This document shows positions 33,822-55,748 of a stretch of 64,000 nucleotides of DNA, piece after piece. The stretch is from Rhizobiaceae bacterium (GTDB taxonomy: Bacteria; Pseudomonadota; Alphaproteobacteria; Rhizobiales; Rhizobiaceae), in the NCBI GenBank assembly GCA_029233925.1, contig JARGOX010000004.1, forward strand, positions 186,001-250,000. Reading direction: 5' to 3'. Position numbers and translations under genes: made by a program. The notes below the pieces were generated by a model. That model had not been told where the DNA came from and ran no database searches. It was given only the letters and a program-made list of their open reading frames with translations. Positions within the stretch are counted from its first letter, which is position 1, and each line of letters starts with the position of its first letter.

Positions 33822-33849
33822 ATATGATCTATAATAACAGATCGTATAT
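33822..33849 (+). promoter_or_regulatory. Inverted-repeat operator and -10 box upstream of hipB
   Basis: ATATGATCT (33822-33830) and AGATCGTATAT (33839-33849) form an inverted repeat, with a perfect TATAAT (33830-33835) between the arms. HipB-type antitoxins bind palindromes of this kind over their own promoter, so autoregulation is likely. No good -35 is seen at normal spacing. Confidence 0.45.
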
Positions 33850-33919
33850 GGACCCAAATATCGTAACCATGATATGCAGAACTATATCGAAAACAAAATT
33901 TGATGTGGAAAAGCAGATC

Positions 33920-34249
33920 ATGAGCTACGCAACGCAGGATATCCTGGAAGGGCTGAAAAGCACCAGAGAGGCCAAAGGTCTGAGTCAGCGGAACCTCAGC
34001 GCCCTTACCGGTGTGCCACAGAGCCATATATCGAAGATCGAAAACGCTGGCACGGATATCCGCCTGTCCAGCCTGATCGAACTGGCACGCGCGCTGGATC
34101 TTGAACTCAGGCTCATCCCGCGCAAGGCCCTGCCCGCCGTGGACGCCATCGTGGGAAGCGCAGCAACGAACGCATCCGCTGATGGCAGGGAACGCCCGCC
34201 ACGCCCTGCCTATCGCCTTGATGAAGATGCGGAGGACGGTCATGGCTGA
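33920..34249 (+). CDS. HipB-like HTH (XRE) antitoxin
   Basis: 109-aa DNA-binding protein. HTH about residues 10-62: LEGLKSTREAKGLSQRNLSA, then SHISKIENAGTDIRLSSLIE. The C-terminal tail is disordered and acidic. The start at 33920 is chosen because homology begins there; in-frame codons from 33824 run through the operator. It overlaps the start of a hipA fragment by 8 nt. Since the partner toxin is deleted, the antitoxin may be an orphan. Confidence 0.82.
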   Translation: MSYATQDILEGLKSTREAKGLSQRNLSALTGVPQSHISKIENAGTDIRLSSLIELARALDLELRLIPRKALPAVDAIVGSAATNASADGRERPPRPAYRLDEDAEDGHG

Positions 34250-35372: not shown

Positions 35373-35470
35373 TGATTTGCTCCCTGAGCACCAAGGCTAC
35401 CACTGGCAGGATTCTGAAGAAAGGTCTCCCTCAAGCGACAATGGGCCGGTTCACGGAGATTTGTTTGCCG

Positions 35471-35530
35471 GTCGGGATGGGGCGGGTCGGGATGGGGCGG
35501 GTCGGGAAGGCGCAGGTCGGGCGGGGCGAC
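35471..35530. repeat. 15-bp GC-rich tandem repeat (about four units)
   Basis: Two perfect copies of GTCGGGATGGGGCGG (35471-35485, 35486-35500) are followed by a third with changes (GTCGGGAAGGCGCAG) and a partial fourth. It lies in the 300-bp non-coding stretch upstream of the flavodoxin gene, left of the island boundary. No gene is recognised between 35373 and 35678. Confidence 0.8.
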
Positions 35531-35678
35531 GATGCCAGGATGGGTAGGACGCTGACGTCCAGTTCGCAGCGCAATGTCAGGCTGCATTGGGTTGCCGTCG
35601 ATAGGGTGGCAGGCTGGAACCGATTGCCCATTCATCCGCACCAGATGCGCTCTGTCTTGCTGAAACTGATCATGAAAA

Positions 35679-35722
35679 TGGCGCGCCCGACACGATTCGA
35701 ATCTGTGACCTCTGCCTTCGGA
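35679..35722 (-). repeat. Partial tRNA-Arg 3' half, probable attachment-site remnant
   Basis: Copies the 3' half of the intact tRNA-Arg at 43705-43781, from the anticodon loop to the acceptor and CCA, on the same strand. A 28-bp core (35695-35722) is identical to 43721-43748; the acceptor-stem portion (35679-35694) is similar but diverged, and the 5' half is absent. A duplicated tRNA 3' end is the usual scar of integrase-mediated insertion. It marks the left edge of an island of about 8 kb. Confidence 0.75.
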
Positions 35723-35855
35723 AGACCAACTGTAAAATAATATCCTTATAAATTTTAAATTTTTCAACAACTTAACATCGTTCGATGTCGATCACTATCG
35801 CCGCCAAGTGTGCCAAAATTATGCCAGCGCTGCGCTTCACATCAGTCTCTTGCAT

Positions 35856-35951
35856 AAAAAGCTGGAAATCGCACAGCATAATAAGCTATATTAGACAAAG
35901 CGCAATAAGCTATAAATCACACAACACAAAAAGCTAGAGAAACACCGATGG
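35856..35951 (+). repeat. Four direct repeats with exact 24-bp period upstream of fic
   Basis: AAxAAGCT occurs at 35856, 35880, 35904 and 35928, each exactly 24 bp after the last (x = A, T, T, A). The middle two units also share AATAAGCTATA, and related A-rich and CACA-containing tails follow. The last unit runs into the fic start codon at 35948. This looks like an operator array for a protein that binds as a multimer, most simply the AbiEi-like N-terminal region of the Fic protein itself (inference). Confidence 0.7.
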
Positions 35952-37498
35952 CTACACCGCAGGAAAAACTCGCAGACTCTCTTGAAAAGCTCAAGTCCCT
36001 TCAAGACCGAAGCATCGTAGCGATACGTGCAAGTGACCTGTCGCGGACACATCGTGAGAGACTGCTGAAAAACGGCTTTCTCCAGCAGGTGATGAAAGGT
36101 TGGTTCATTCCCGCGAGCCCCAACGACGATCCAGGTGAGACCACAGCCTGGTATGCCTCCTTTTGGGATTTTTGTGCCGCTTATCTGAAAGAGCGGTTTG
36201 GAGACGATTGGTGCGTAGGTCCCGAACAATCGCTCATGCTGCAAGCGGGCAACAATCTGATCCCCCCTCAGCTTGTCATTCGTTCGCCTAAAGCGCGCAA
36301 TAAGCCGACCGGCTTGATGCATGGCACTTCTATCTATGAAATGCGGCTGGCAATGCCAGACACCAAAGACATTGTTGAAGAAAATGGATTACGCTTGTTC
36401 AGCCCATCCGCAGCACTGGTTTTTGCAGCGCCAGCATTCTTCTCTCACAGACCGGTGGACGCTCGAACCACCCTTGCCTCGTTTTCCGACGCTTCAGAAA
36501 TCCTCGCCCATTTGCTTGAGGGAGGACACAGCGTCATTGCCGGACGGCTGGCCGGCGCCTTTCGCAATATCGGACGTGACCGCATTGCTGATGATATCCT
36601 CAAGAACATGGACGCTGCGGGATACACAGTTCGCGAAAACGATCCCTTTGAAACAAAGGTCAACATTGCACTGCCTCGCCGTGAGACCTCGCCCTATGCC
36701 GGTCGCATCCGCCTGATGTGGCAAGACATGCGTGGTGCTGTTGTCGACAGTTTTCCGCAAAGCCCCGGCATGCCGAACGACGCCAAAGCCTATCTCAAGC
36801 GCGTCGAAGATGTTTACGTCACCGACGCCTATCATTCTCTATCGATCGAAGGCTATCGGGTTAGTCCGGAACTCATTGAACGCGTGCGCCGTGGTGGGTG
36901 GAATCCTGATAGCGAAGAAGATCGCAAGCACCGCGATGCGATGGCAGCGCGCGGCTATTTTCTAGCTTTTCAGTCCGTCAAGAAGAGCGTCACCGCTGTC
37001 CTCCAGCACAAAAACCCAGGAACTGTGGCAGATAACGATCATGGCAATTGGTATCGCGCGTTATTTGGTCCGAGCGTGACAGCCGGTATCCTGAAAACAT
37101 CGGACCTTGCAGGTTACCGCAATAACAATGTCTACATCCATCGATCGAAACACGTTCCTCTAGCCCCTCATGCCGTGCGCGATGCCATGCCGGTCTTCTT
37201 CGAAATGCTGGAAGCTGAAGACGATCCCACCGTCCGTGTCGTGCTCGGGCATTTCATATTCGTTTATATCCATCCATACATGGACGGCAACGGACGCATG
37301 GGCCGCTTTCTGATGAACGTGATGCTGGCAGGCGGGGGCTATCCATGGACTGTCATCCCCGTTGAACGTCGCGACGACTACATGTCCGCGCTTGAGCAAG
37401 CGAGCGTCGACCAAAACATTGTACCGTTCAGTCAATTCCTCGGCGACCTTGTCAACGCCTCAATGGCAGGCAGGCCAGCGGCAAAGAGACCTGGCTAG
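35948..37498 (+). CDS. Fic family protein with AbiEi-like N-terminal region (self-contained toxin-antitoxin candidate)
   Basis: 516-aa protein. Residues about 15-235 resemble AbiEi-type antitoxin/wHTH proteins (RTHRERLLKNGFLQQVMKGW, then FIPASPND; LFSPSAALVFAAPAFF). Residues about 280-500 are a Fic domain: FIFVYIHPYMDGNGRMGRFL holds the full HPFx(D)GNGRxxR AMPylation motif (His442, Arg450, Arg453). The inhibitory motif S/TxxxE-G/N is present as SLSIEG (297-302) ahead of the core, so it would be a class II, self-inhibited Fic. Fic enzymes transfer AMP or related groups to target proteins. It sits at the left end of the island with four operator-like repeats upstream and no separate antitoxin. 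Confidence 0.88.
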   Translation: MATPQEKLADSLEKLKSLQDRSIVAIRASDLSRTHRERLLKNGFLQQVMKGWFIPASPNDDPGETTAWYASFWDFCAAYLKERFGDDWCVGPEQSLMLQAGNNLIPPQLVIRSPKARNKPTGLMHGTSIYEMRLAMPDTKDIVEENGLRLFSPSAALVFAAPAFFSHRPVDARTTLASFSDASEILAHLLEGGHSVIAGRLAGAFRNIGRDRIADDILKNMDAAGYTVRENDPFETKVNIALPRRETSPYAGRIRLMWQDMRGAVVDSFPQSPGMPNDAKAYLKRVEDVYVTDAYHSLSIEGYRVSPELIERVRRGGWNPDSEEDRKHRDAMAARGYFLAFQSVKKSVTAVLQHKNPGTVADNDHGNWYRALFGPSVTAGILKTSDLAGYRNNNVYIHRSKHVPLAPHAVRDAMPVFFEMLEAEDDPTVRVVLGHFIFVYIHPYMDGNGRMGRFLMNVMLAGGGYPWTVIPVERRDDYMSALEQASVDQNIVPFSQFLGDLVNASMAGRPAAKRPG

Positions 37499-40390: not shown

Positions 40391-41124
40391 TTATAAGTGC
40401 CTAATTCTCGGCGCCATCGGATTTTCCGTTGGCTGAATTCTGCTGACGCGTTGGACCGTTGCCGCCTCTTGCGGTGCTGGTCGTCGTAGCGATGAAACCT
40501 GTGTTGTTTTCAGAAAGGGTTCGGATCCGGCGGCGTCATCGGGCCGCGGCGCATATTCGGGCGTGGGCCAGTGCATATTCCTCGGCATAGGGACAGGCCG
40601 AAGATATAGTCTATCTTGTTGGTTTCGCACCAGTCTATCAGGGCGTCGCAGGCAATGCCGGAATCGGCCCGCAGGATGATGCGAACCCTTGGCCAGGTCT
40701 TTCGGATCTGCGTGACGATCCGCCCGACTTCCTCCTGCGATCCCTTGCTGGCGTCGATGTCGGAAGGCCAGGACCGGATCATGGCGAAGGGTGTCGTGGT
40801 CGTCGACGTCGTAATTTCCCAAGGCGATTGCCGAGATGCGCTGTGCGACCAGTGTGCGCACGCTATGAACTGTGATATCTGGTTTGCGGTGATCGACAAA
40901 GCAGGAGGCGACGGGGTCGAACAGGTTCATCGCCTTGTCGACGTGGCGCAGCAGCAAGGCGCCGGCATCCGAGGTAATCGCTCCGCCATCAAAACCGGCA
41001 ACAACTTTGTGGCCGTCAAAGCCTTCGAATTCGATCTGTTTGGCGTTACAGTGTGTTTGCATCGGACCCCATCCCGAATTCTGACAAGTCTTTGTTGCAA
41101 AAGAACTTTATCAGAATTCCGGGG
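40391..41124 (-). mobile_element. IS1380-family transposase remnant
   Basis: The minus-strand frame from 41062 begins like IS1380 transposases (VVAGFDGGAITSDAGALLLR, RTLVAQRISAIALGNYDVDD, HDTLRHDPVLA). It then jumps frame around 40790, where SQEEVGRIVTQIRKTWPRVR continues the protein after an internal deletion. The second half of the transposase is missing. An inverted repeat with GAATTC arms (41074-41084 and 41111-41121) lies at the 5' end. Full-length members are about 430-470 aa, so it is inactive. Confidence 0.8.
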
Positions 41125-41155: not shown

Positions 41156-42385
41156 CTAGTCGTTCATTCTCAAGGCTTTCTCTGCCGCCGCGTGCTCAAA
41201 CGCCTCAGCGTAAGTCCGTACATCATTCGAGGACGCTCCTTCGTCACGGAGCGTCTGTTTCCAATTGTTCGCGATGGTCCCAGCCATTTGACGCGCCTGT
41301 TGCTCGGCAACAAGGTGCGTAAGATCAAAAAACGCACAGGCGTCCAGCGCGATATCGAGGGAGGCGTCGAACAAACCGCCTTGGACGATACCGGTCTCCA
41401 AGACCCGGTGGCGCGACGGCGACGGATTGATGTCGAAAGCTGGTGACAGCCGCCATCTGTCTCCACCTGCATAGATGAAGCCGTGGTTTTTCAGGTGATC
41501 GTCCTTGTTCGACACGAGGATCGTGAAAACGATCCGCCGCCAGAGCTCATGGAGATCATCGACGGGCTTGCTCGAAATCTGCCGGATCACATCGGCGATA
41601 TCCGTGTAGTAGCCCCCTTCGTCACCCTGCCAGTCCAGCGCGGTTCTCGCTGAAATATAGGGGATGCGCGTCTCGCCGCGGCGGTCGAACCGCCGGATGA
41701 GCGCGATCGGACTGTCGCTGTCCCGTAACTCCAGCTTCGCTTCGGCGACCCGCAGTCCGCACATGGCCGCGAGTTTCAAGGTGGCGACCTCGGCGCGTTC
41801 GATGGGCTTGGTGTCCTGTGCGGATGTGAACTTGGCAATCCAGAGATGGCCATCGCCCTCGACATTGGCCTTCGGGCGCGCACCGCCGAGCGAGCCGGCA
41901 ATACCGGCCAGATCGCGTGCCTCTTCTTCCGCGCCACTGGGATCGCGCTCGAACCGCTGGGCAAGCCCGCGCAACCGTTCAAGTTCGACCAGCCGCGGGA
42001 TCGGCGGCGTCAAATCGGACAGTGGCTCCATATCTTCGCCAAGAAACCGTAGCGCGCCCTGCCGTGTGCGGTCATCTGACAGCACCAGATAATCGAACTC
42101 GCTGAGACCGCCGCCAAGCGCCCTGGTCATCAAAGCCCGCCCCCAGGCATCCGGCGCGGCGTCGGCAAAGCATCCGGGCAGTGCCGAACGCTTGTTTTCC
42201 TTGCCGGTGCTGAAGTGACTGCCCTCGCGCAAAGGCAACCCGGGCGACAGTGCGAAACGGTCGGATGCTGCCAGCCACTCGTCGGCGTACTCAAACTGCG
42301 AATGCTGACGCCGACCGTCACTCTCGAAGCGCAAACGGCCGACGACACGCTTGCCTTCCCCAAGAGCGACGATCGCTTCCGGCAT
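41156..42385 (-). CDS. HipA-family serine/threonine kinase toxin
   Basis: 409-aa HipA-like kinase. An N-terminal HipA_N region is followed by GSLGGARPKANVEG (P-loop with the regulatory Ser), IERAEVATLKLAAMCGLRVA, catalytic NKDDHLKNHGFIY and SPAFDINPSP (DFD equivalent). All kinase motifs are present, so it should be active. Its start overlaps the antitoxin stop by one base (TGATG). HipA toxins phosphorylate aminoacyl-tRNA synthetases or other targets and arrest growth. It is inside the island, unlike the deleted hipA at 34.2 kb. Confidence 0.92.
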   Translation of the reverse strand: MPEAIVALGEGKRVVGRLRFESDGRRQHSQFEYADEWLAASDRFALSPGLPLREGSHFSTGKENKRSALPGCFADAAPDAWGRALMTRALGGGLSEFDYLVLSDDRTRQGALRFLGEDMEPLSDLTPPIPRLVELERLRGLAQRFERDPSGAEEEARDLAGIAGSLGGARPKANVEGDGHLWIAKFTSAQDTKPIERAEVATLKLAAMCGLRVAEAKLELRDSDSPIALIRRFDRRGETRIPYISARTALDWQGDEGGYYTDIADVIRQISSKPVDDLHELWRRIVFTILVSNKDDHLKNHGFIYAGGDRWRLSPAFDINPSPSRHRVLETGIVQGGLFDASLDIALDACAFFDLTHLVAEQQARQMAGTIANNWKQTLRDEGASSNDVRTYAEAFEHAAAEKALRMND

Positions 42386-42771
42386 CAGAAACCCACCCCT
42401 TCTTCATCGTCCGCATCGGACAAGGGCGCTGATTGGCTTTTGCCGGATGGCGGCGATCCGGGTTTTCGTTTTTTGTCGATCCGCTTGGGGAGCGCTTCCC
42501 GATCGAGAAGCAGCCCGGTATCGTCGGACCCGGCATCAAGAAAGTCGGAAATCCGATCGAGCTCGCCGAGGACGAGGCAGGCCATCGCCAGCGTGCCGAT
42601 GCTGACCCCGTCGTCGCCTTTCTCCAGGCGTGTGATGGTGCTTTCGGACACACCGACCCGCTCGGCGAACCCCTTAACGGAGATACGCCGCTTCAAGCGC
42701 GCCGTCTTGATGTTCGCACCCAGAGCTTCAAGTGCTCGCCGTGCGTTCAGTGAACTTATCTTAACTGCCAT
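42385..42771 (-). CDS. HipB-like HTH (XRE) antitoxin
   Basis: 128-aa regulator. HTH about residues 13-66: ALGANIKTARLKRRISVKGF, then RVGVSESTITRLEKGDDGVS. The tail is basic then acidic (ADDEEGVGF). ATG at 42771 is chosen because an inverted repeat operator begins right there; an ATG at 42789 would add MRRTSD and run through the operator. Coupled to hipA by a one-base overlap, forming a complete hipBA module. Confidence 0.88.
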   Translation of the reverse strand: MAVKISSLNARRALEALGANIKTARLKRRISVKGFAERVGVSESTITRLEKGDDGVSIGTLAMACLVLGELDRISDFLDAGSDDTGLLLDREALPKRIDKKRKPGSPPSGKSQSAPLSDADDEEGVGF

Positions 42772-42806
42772 ATCTGACGTTCTTCTCATTATTATCCGTC
42801 AAATAT
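42770..42806 (-). promoter_or_regulatory. Inverted-repeat operator of hipBA
   Basis: ATATCTGACG (42770-42779) and CGTCAAATAT (42797-42806) are inverted copies matching at 9 of 10 positions with a 17-bp AT-rich spacer. Position at the hipB start matches the autoregulatory operators of HipB proteins. No relation in sequence to the hipB operator at 33.8 kb beyond AT-richness. Confidence 0.5.
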
Positions 42807-43704: not shown

Positions 43705-43781
<77 letters not shown>

Positions 43782-45347: not shown

Positions 45348-45922
45348 GCGGTGCCTGGAGTGAGGCACGAGTGTGCGGCACCTCAGAGGAGTGGTACGGA
45401 AAAAACGGGAGCTGCGCTGCGCCTTCGTGAATCCTTTCTGTTCACGGCGAGCGGCGCTAAAGCGCCTGCCTACACAGGGTGCGGCCAAAAAGTTGGCCGG
45501 GCTGCGGTCGCAGCCTGTTGAGTGCCCCGAAGTAAGGCACCGGTCACTGCAAGGCGTGCCCAAAGCGAGGTACCAGTGTGCCGTACTTCAGAAGAGTTTT
45601 TCGGAGAACGCGGAGCTGCGCTGCACTTTCGTGAATCCTTTCTGTTCACGGCGAGCGGCGCTAAAGCGCCTGCCTACACAGGGTGCGGCCAAAAAGTTGG
45701 CCGGGCTGCGGTCGCAGCCTGTTGAGTGCCCCGAAGTTAGGCACCGGGCGCTGTAGACCCTGCCTTGCTGGTAAGTCCCAGGGTGCAGCAAGCACGGCCT
45801 TACTGCCAGGCACGCATCCGCCGTAGGCGGCAAGCGCGCCAGTTAACCGTCAATGTCGCGTCGGGGCTAATGCCCCGCCCCGTCTGGAGCCAGCGCCGCA
45901 AGGCGCGTACGGCGAGAAGACA
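45348..45922 (+). repeat. Hairpin-rich non-coding repeat, copy A (tandemly duplicated)
   Basis: About 575 bp of non-coding DNA matching the element at 55411-55748. Within it, 45424-45533 is repeated perfectly at 45628-45737 (110 bp, 204-bp offset). It is built from short stems: GTGCC/GGCAC, GGCGC-taaa-GCGCC, GGCCAA-aaag-TTGGCC, CCGCC-gta-GGCGG, CGGGGC-taat-GCCCCG (45862-45877), GCGCC-gcaa-GGCGC. Open frames across it are consequences of high GC. It lies between a hydrolase gene and a LysR gene. Confidence 0.8.
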
Positions 45923-55392: not shown

Positions 55393-55410
55393 ATCAAGGG
55401 AGTTTGTGGG

Positions 55411-55748
55411 CGGTGCCCGGAGCGAGGCACTGAGTTGCCGCACCTCAGAAGAGTGTTACCGAGAACGCGGGAGTTGCGCAGAGAGGCTGGGATTTTTTCC
55501 GCTCACGGCGAGCGGCGCTGACGCGCCTGCCTGCGCGGGGCGCGGCCAAACGATTGGCCGGGCCGCAGTCGCGGCCTGTTTGAGTGCCCCGAAGCAAAGC
55601 ACCAGCCGCTGCAAGCGCTGCCTTACTGACAGGCACGTTCCCGCCGAAGGCGGCAAGCGCGCCAATTACCGGTCAATGGGCCGTCGGGGCTCATGCCCCG
55701 CCCCGTCTGGAGCCAGCGCCGAAGGCGCGTACGGGGCGTGAAGACAGA
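55411..55748 (+). repeat. Hairpin-rich non-coding repeat, copy B
   Basis: About 340 bp, same orientation as copy A (45348-45922). Opens with GTGCC-cggagcga-GGCAC and ends in the shared GCGTACGG...GAAGAC tail. Stems match copy A while loops differ: GGCGC-tgac-GCGCC, GGCCAA-acga-TTGGCC, CCGCC-gaa-GGCGG, CGGGGC-tcat-GCCCCG (55685-55700), GCGCC-gaa-GGCGC. It fills the gap between the convergent M20 and glycosyltransferase genes. Confidence 0.8.

Follow-up and report, generated by a model that had tools for sequence, protein, structure and literature searches.

A Fic fusion gene of 516 aa (35948..37498, forward strand) was found in the 64-kb stretch of Rhizobiaceae DNA analysed here (the window), directly behind an array of four head-to-tail 24-bp repeat units. 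The period of these repeats was conserved before the related genes, two residues in the N-terminal half of the protein covaried with one base of the repeat unit, the catalytic and inhibitory Fic motifs were intact and no partner gene recurred beside the family. The gene is likely to be a self-regulated Fic module consisting of one gene. Based on the conserved period and on a repeat core that follows residues 117 and 119, the N-terminal region is very probably the reader of the array, and the function of this reading would most simply, and very probably, be autorepression without a partner protein.

The Fic fusion gene and its upstream array

The layout of the protein is of the class II type, with the inhibitory motif N-terminal of the Fic core. 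The C-terminal half is a Fic domain (Pfam Fic, E 9.3e-13, residues 388-460) with the catalytic motif HPYMDGNGRMGR at residues 442-453 (37271..37306, forward strand), of which H442 is the first residue. The inhibitory motif SLSIEG, including E301, was located at residues 297-302 (36836..36853, forward strand), within a VbhA-like stretch at residues 291-311 that remained below the Pfam cut-off (E 0.027). An intact Fic core and the SLSIEG motif had both been named in a preliminary description of this DNA and were confirmed at these positions. The strict motif HPxx(D/E)GNGRxxR is present in the window protein and in 121 of 124 family proteins overall; the three others start with HPL, and one of these also has a changed G447. 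The S and E of the inhibitory motif were kept in all 124 proteins (E retained in 124/124) and the strict form (S/T)xxxE(G/N) in 112. With Pfam, no helix-turn-helix (HTH) match was found behind the Fic domain, whose match stops at residue 460 of 516.

The putative operator array covers 35851..35946 on the forward strand, with its units in family register at 35851-35874, 35875-35898, 35899-35922 and 35923-35946. Each unit contains the core AAWAAGCT, as AAAAAGCT at 35856, AATAAGCT at 35880 and 35904 and AAAAAGCT again at 35928, in exact 24-bp steps, and the final unit stops at 35946, one base short of the ATG at 35948. The spaced pair AAWAAGCT-N16-AAWAAGCT occurred three times in the window, all within the array, and in none of 100 dinucleotide shuffles. 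Tandem Repeats Finder independently detected a repeat at 35852-35936 (period 24, 3.5 copies, 68% matches). The coordinates and shuffles thus bear out the earlier observation of four AAxAAGCT copies at 24-bp intervals next to the start codon; its wording ‘perfectly periodic’ is correct for the spacing, not for the sequence of the whole unit. No second exact spaced pair was found elsewhere in the 6.1-Mb genome, so there is no regulon site of this form beyond the array. Allowing up to two mismatches, the whole genome gave 12 matches (including the three in the array) versus 20 for a reversed control pattern.

Conservation of the array in related loci

Relatives were drawn from 397 genomes of the order, from plasmids, from a species-representative genome collection (the best 80 of 549 confirmed stretches were used), from class and phylum genomes (289 and 299, partly overlapping) and from IMG/VR. 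The first set consisted of 74+7+9 = 90 loci, of which L010 and L061 encode the same protein; of the 80 species-representative loci, L079, L086, L089, L098, L100 and L104 were left out, the gene start being absent. The period was measured as the strongest self-match lag, in the range of 12-59 bp, in the 220 bp upstream of the start codon. The best lag was 24 at 57 loci, 48 at 16, 23 at 10 and 46 at three, together 86 of the 90, and all 14 additional loci had a best lag of 24, 46 or 48. Overall, direct repeats with a period of 23 or 24 bp, or twice that, were present at 100 of 104 orthologous loci, so that the repeats, on whose conservation the preliminary description had staked its proposal, were retained. 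After thinning of the 101 loci with a usable protein, the period was found in 96 of 100 below 95% identity and in 84 of 87 below 75%.

Before other genes this period was rare. A lag of this kind with a score of at least 12 was seen before 79 of the 90 fic genes versus three of 443 upstream regions of other mechanically called open reading frames (ORFs) of at least 150 aa at the same loci. Among 70 Fic genes that matched in the Fic part only, one had a lag of the 23/24/46/48 set; 22 had some repeat, with scattered lags. Tandem repeats form easily and the copy number in the family ranges from two to seven, which would suit repeats that arose by slippage or as hitch-hiking iterons and have nothing to do with the protein. 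A fixed period of 23/24 with differing sequences in many lineages, its lack before the other ORFs of the same loci and the co-change of residues and bases on a tree, described below, make such an origin extremely improbable.

The arrays comprised two to seven full units (the longest, of seven, spans 168 bp). The distance between array end and start codon had a median of 16.5 bp in 92 loci and was within 40 bp at 79 of these. A period of 23 bp was the best fit at 14 of the 104 loci, at several of them weakly. The period-24 units could be aligned to one frame, set from the DNA only, with the consensus RRCAYnAWAAnCTARWAATnGYAC, in which the variable positions sit around 10-15 within a shared backbone. 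A search for AAxAAGCT arrays before other Fic genes had been suggested earlier. What the orthologous arrays have in common is the 23/24-bp period together with some of the unit; AAxAAGCT itself was not kept, and the cores of the orthologs included AACCT, AAACT, ACTTG, ACGTG, TTAGTG, CAATCG and others. A 48-bp superperiod, corresponding to a dimer of units, was rejected, as units i and i+2 were more alike than i and i+1 in just 25 of 58 arrays.

A period of 23/24 equals the distance between the −35 and −10 boxes, and by eye TTGACT...TATACT was seen in the arrays of L008, L056 and L057; in the window array no clear −35/−10 consensus pair was seen by eye. At one locus (L123), the array was kept before an open frame of 110 aa that matched the profile over its first 87 positions and may be a truncated copy.

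Covariation of N-terminal residues with the repeat unit

Covariation was assessed for loci that had a protein, a period of 24 and an array score of at least 15; there were 79 of these, and 70 remained after thinning to below 75% identity. The highest mutual information was obtained for residue 229 with unit position 23 (z 10.6), 119 with 10 (z 9.3), 50 with 5 (z 8.5) and 117 with 10 (z 8.1), while the columns of the Fic domain, taken as a control for shared ancestry, reached a maximum z of 5.9. Because ancestry inflates such scores, co-change was also tested branch by branch on a tree for which only the Fic domain was used (92 of the 97 loci below 95% identity; 504 columns by 24 positions, 12,096 tests; p-values treat branches as exchangeable). 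The held-out loci described below entered this set only with a frame margin above 0.3. Residue 119 with position 10 ranked first (p 2.9e-10) and residue 117 with position 10 second (p 2.9e-8). The third pair, residue 355 with position 3 (p 9.3e-6), lies in the Fic domain, is the best Fic-domain column anywhere and hence marks the level of chance or lineage effects. Only the 119 and 117 pairs exceed this level, which limits the tree-proof code to position 10. Residues 50, 118, 131 and 229 were rejected as further readers, since on the tree they did not rise above the chance-level pairs. In the window, the codons of R117-N118-K119 are at 36296..36304 (forward strand) and unit position 10 is a G.

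The relation between residues and base can be written as a rule. R117 occurred with G10 at 14 of 14 loci, N119 with A10 at 37 of 42 (37 of 38 where residue 117 is not R) and K119 with C10 at 13 of 15 where residue 117 is not R. The rule was correct at 64 of 67 loci, including those from which it was derived, versus 40 of 67 for a prediction from the nearest Fic-domain relative, with the discordant cases 24:0 in favor of the rule. In 41 non-overlapping close pairs, base 10 differed in 19, and residue 117 or 119 had changed in all 19; for example, the window protein has R117 with AAGCT and its relative at L005 has G117 (K119) with AACCT. D131 with C11 (50/50) and R229 with C23 (61/62) are less firm than position 10.

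A further 26 loci were fetched once the rule was known. One of these (L161) repeats L017 by eye and was left unread, and 11 gave no prediction, among them L169 and L254, which also had no 24-bp reading. All 14 possible predictions were right, as were all 10 below 90% identity to the training loci; the other four (L159, L252, L253 and L256) were at 91% or more. Among the 10, reading was by eye for L157 (81% identity to training over the first 263 residues) and L249 (period 23), and the frame margin of L170 was poor.

Several observations weigh against the proposed self-regulated module. Four of the 104 loci (L048, L065, L070 and L075) were without the period, and shared ancestry can be discounted for position 10 alone. 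On the tree, residue 118 was the top column for position 12 (1.9e-5) and residue 229 for position 23 (9.3e-4), but neither pair was above the chance-level Fic-domain pairs (9.3e-6, 2.9e-5 and 3.5e-5); residues 131 and 50 were not the top columns for positions 11 and 5. A residue rule for position 11 was right at 82 of 91 loci versus 76 for the nearest relative, a small gain, and one for position 23 at 79 of 82 versus 69. Of the 91 loci where base 10 was clear, 24 receive no prediction from the position-10 rule, and in the 22 close pairs sharing this base residue 117 or 119 differed all the same in 13. In the inhibitory motif, the final residue is R or K in 12 of the 124 proteins. Finally, a repeat this close to the ATG could act on the mRNA. 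The protein would then bind repeats in the 5' leader RNA and regulate its own translation, as the single base between the last unit and the ATG might suggest. This is very unlikely given arrays of up to seven full units and the pairings of R with G and of N with A, which are usual contacts in the DNA major groove and favor DNA and direct contact; moreover, the suspected relatives AbiEi and Rv2827c bind DNA, as described in the available parts of the reports (PMC3985639, PMC7319586).

The candidate DNA-reading region, residues 1-265 (35948..36742, forward strand), is suspected to have a two-domain fold like that of AbiEi. In a profile search of the 289 genomes, 10 of its 11 matches were in open frames of 517-547 aa and one in a frame of 110 aa. 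The preliminary description had called this region AbiEi-like. A marginal colinear profile match is in favor of this: hhalign against AbiEi proteins gave P 1.4e-4 (probability 53) over residues 13-235 with three sequences and P 0.001 (probability 21) over 13-237 with seven, and P 0.22 for the Fic domain as a control. Four further AbiEi-type groups gave weaker and shorter profile matches (P 0.0074 to 0.057). On the other side, Pfam gave no match in residues 1-264 of the window protein, AbiEi families included, one of 41 relatives touched AbiEi_4 (E 0.0047), and no AbiEi structure was found in a PDB profile search with the N-terminal alignment (best E 0.19). An AbiEi-like fold is thus compatible with the sequence, not established. 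By the AbiEi alignment, a putative winged helix is at about residues 25-55, and residues 117 and 119 are outside this stretch. If the region is AbiEi-like, the reading loop 117-119 would fall in the second domain, which in AbiEi is described as the antitoxicity domain (PMC7319586, in the part available).

At standalone AbiEi_4, AbiEi_3_N and DUF6088 loci, no 23/24-bp array scoring at least 12 was found, with the exception of L156. This standalone DUF6088 gene of AbiEi type (1227-1446) has two direct repeats of the TGTCGTATTTTTG type immediately ahead of its start codon, at a spacing of 23-24 bp. Among six places found with the L156 protein, L273 is L156 itself, L274 (24 bp) and L277 (23 bp) also had two units, L275 and L278 did not, and L276 had no credible start for reading.

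Proposed working, related systems and genomic setting

No neighbor family recurred within 4 kb of the gene at more than six of 81 loci, which gives no hint of an antitoxin encoded by a gene of its own, as stated earlier for the window. An AbiEii-like protein, named from its sequence, was found within 4 kb at three of the 81 loci; the ORFs scanned next to the window gene included none. Relatives were present in 12 of the 397 genomes of the order, own genome included, and in 77 plasmid records at E ≤ 1e-60 (40 conjugative, 33 non-mobilizable and four mobilizable; many are near-identical Bacteroides records), with carriers among B. thetaiotaomicron, rhizobia, Vibrio and others. Judged by record titles, many of them of metagenome-assembled genomes, the family presumably occurs in at least nine phyla. 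No full-length relative was found in 50,697 phage records, and five of the best 80 loci of IMG/VR matched from residues 1-5 onward. On two rhizobial plasmids (L023, L257), traH and traM flank the gene, which is followed by a small HTH gene, and on the Aminobacter plasmid pSR7 (L250) another gene with the annotation Fic family protein is directly upstream of the fusion gene.

In the proposed working, the N-terminal region (residues 1 to about 235) would bind the head-to-tail 24-bp units over the gene start and the presumed promoter, with one protein per unit and residues 117 and 119 reading unit position 10. Transcription would be off when the units are occupied, and the protein would in this way set its own low level. 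The Fic domain is predicted to be an AMP-transferase that the SLSIEG helix keeps inactive in cis and that, once released, is probably toxic to the cell, to judge from its family. Of the earlier suggestion that one polypeptide is toxin, self-inhibitor and autorepressor, the Fic core, the inhibitory motif in cis and, by covariation, a reader of the own array are in place, whereas the toxin part is taken from the family.

The protein could instead be a regulator which AMPylates a specific partner and binds DNA for its own control only, since class II Fic proteins need not be toxic. Given the patchy distribution within the order, the location on plasmids and the toxin-antitoxin-type genes near a few loci (HipA-like at four of 81, besides the AbiEii-like ones, all named from sequence), this is a serious but unlikely possibility.

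The array might also gate the enzyme mainly and not the promoter, the Fic domain being silent or reversed when the protein is bound to the repeats. Loss, replication or degradation of the repeat DNA would then free the AMP-transferase, and the module would sense the loss of its own plasmid or island. The many plasmid-borne copies and the position between traH and traM agree with this, and CbFic2 has been proposed to turn from AMPylation to deAMPylation upon DNA binding (PMC10628234, available in part). However, the short distance between array and start codon is in keeping with a promoter operator, chromosomal copies exist (L037 in a complete chromosome record, L009 on a 6.27-Mb contig) and, in the same source, CbFic2 bound random DNA (PMC10628234). 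We therefore consider such a switch unlikely, though not far-fetched; DNA gating and autorepression are compatible and can both hold. More speculatively, and rather improbably, the array could be a DNA antitoxin, both operator and inhibitor, that silences the Fic enzyme on its own plasmid or island until DNA loss releases it; the modules would be mutually blind as the base-reading loop and the arrays change together, and a readable DNA code would reside in an AbiEi-like second domain, in its loop 117-119. As to the benefit of the autorepressed module for its carrier, the plasmid and island context leads us to guess at plasmid or island upkeep before phage defence.

The closest characterised protein is CccR of Yersinia pseudotuberculosis, by which a Fic protein repressing its own promoter is already known (PMC9755527; here and below, statements are limited to the parts of the reports available). 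Both join a Fic AMP-transferase with sequence-specific autorepression in one polypeptide, the latter being suggested by covariation in the window family, which differs in domain order and operator. CccR has its HTH at the C-terminus and binds as a dimer to two 10-bp inverted repeats lying 26 bp apart (PMC9755527), whereas in the window family the reader is N-terminal and the operator consists of two to seven head-to-tail units of 23/24 bp. The AbiEi antitoxins of type IV AbiE systems and Rv2827c share 23-bp operator units over their own promoter, up to four (PMC3985639, PMC7319586), and the weak colinear profile similarity over residues 13-237. They differ in a separate nucleotidyltransferase as toxin and in the lack of a Fic domain, and the earlier analogy to their repeats of about 23 bp holds for the unit length, not for the orientation, which is direct here and inverted in the published operators (PMC3985639, PMC7319586). 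CbFic2 is likewise a class II Fic enzyme with a DNA-binding domain but, in the part of its report available, has this as a C-terminal HTH with no specific operator known, and DNA is said to switch its enzymatic direction (PMC10628234).

The class II enzymes FICD and SoFic share the N-terminally placed (S/T)xxxE(G/N) helix and the HPxx(D/E)GNGR core, and FICD was the best PDB sequence match of the window protein (E 6e-18). They differ from the window family in that FICD is not known to have a DNA-reading domain and the extra domain of SoFic is C-terminal. A literature search, which covered few subscription journals or preprints, found no published report of the AbiEi-like/Fic family or of its 24-bp array. 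The family is a widespread one in which a single gene brings together a toxin-type enzyme, its cis-inhibitor and, as the covariation suggests, an operator reader in one protein. By the residue-to-base rule, one operator position can be predicted from the protein sequence. The rule also hints at a way in which cross-regulation between related modules is avoided, and it places the probable base-reading loop away from the putative winged helix; the family offers a direct test of whether DNA can serve as antitoxin of a Fic enzyme.

In the window, a 48-bp partial copy of a tRNA-Arg gene was found at 35675..35722, with 91.7% identity to the gene at 43705-43781; it may be an old attachment repeat at the border of an island. 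The Fic fusion gene is just inside this repeat. Its placement at the edge of a mobile island in the preliminary description agrees with the repeat and gained no further support from an empty-site comparison, in which six congeners had the same esterase-type gene and three of these had the tRNA beside it in the flank that was fetched. The tRNA-bounded stretch also holds a second toxin-antitoxin-type pair, a HipA-type kinase (41156-42789, reverse strand; Pfam HipA_C, E 5.2e-46) preceded by an HTH gene, and a transposase ORF (40391-41062, reverse strand), probably an insertion sequence remnant, matching DDE_Tnp_1_4 at profile positions 5-106 of 435 only. A lone HipB-like HTH protein is encoded just outside the tRNA-Arg repeat (33824-34249, forward strand), and just left of this repeat is a GC-rich 15-bp tandem repeat, GGTCGGGATGGGGCG, in 3.5 copies (35470-35521). 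Repeats of about 190 bp are located near both ends of a 10-kb stretch (45359-45747 and 55409-55746). In three congeners (L267, L268 and L269), the sequence matching 55.8 kb is close to that matching 45.2 kb, and this 10-kb stretch may thus be an insertion.
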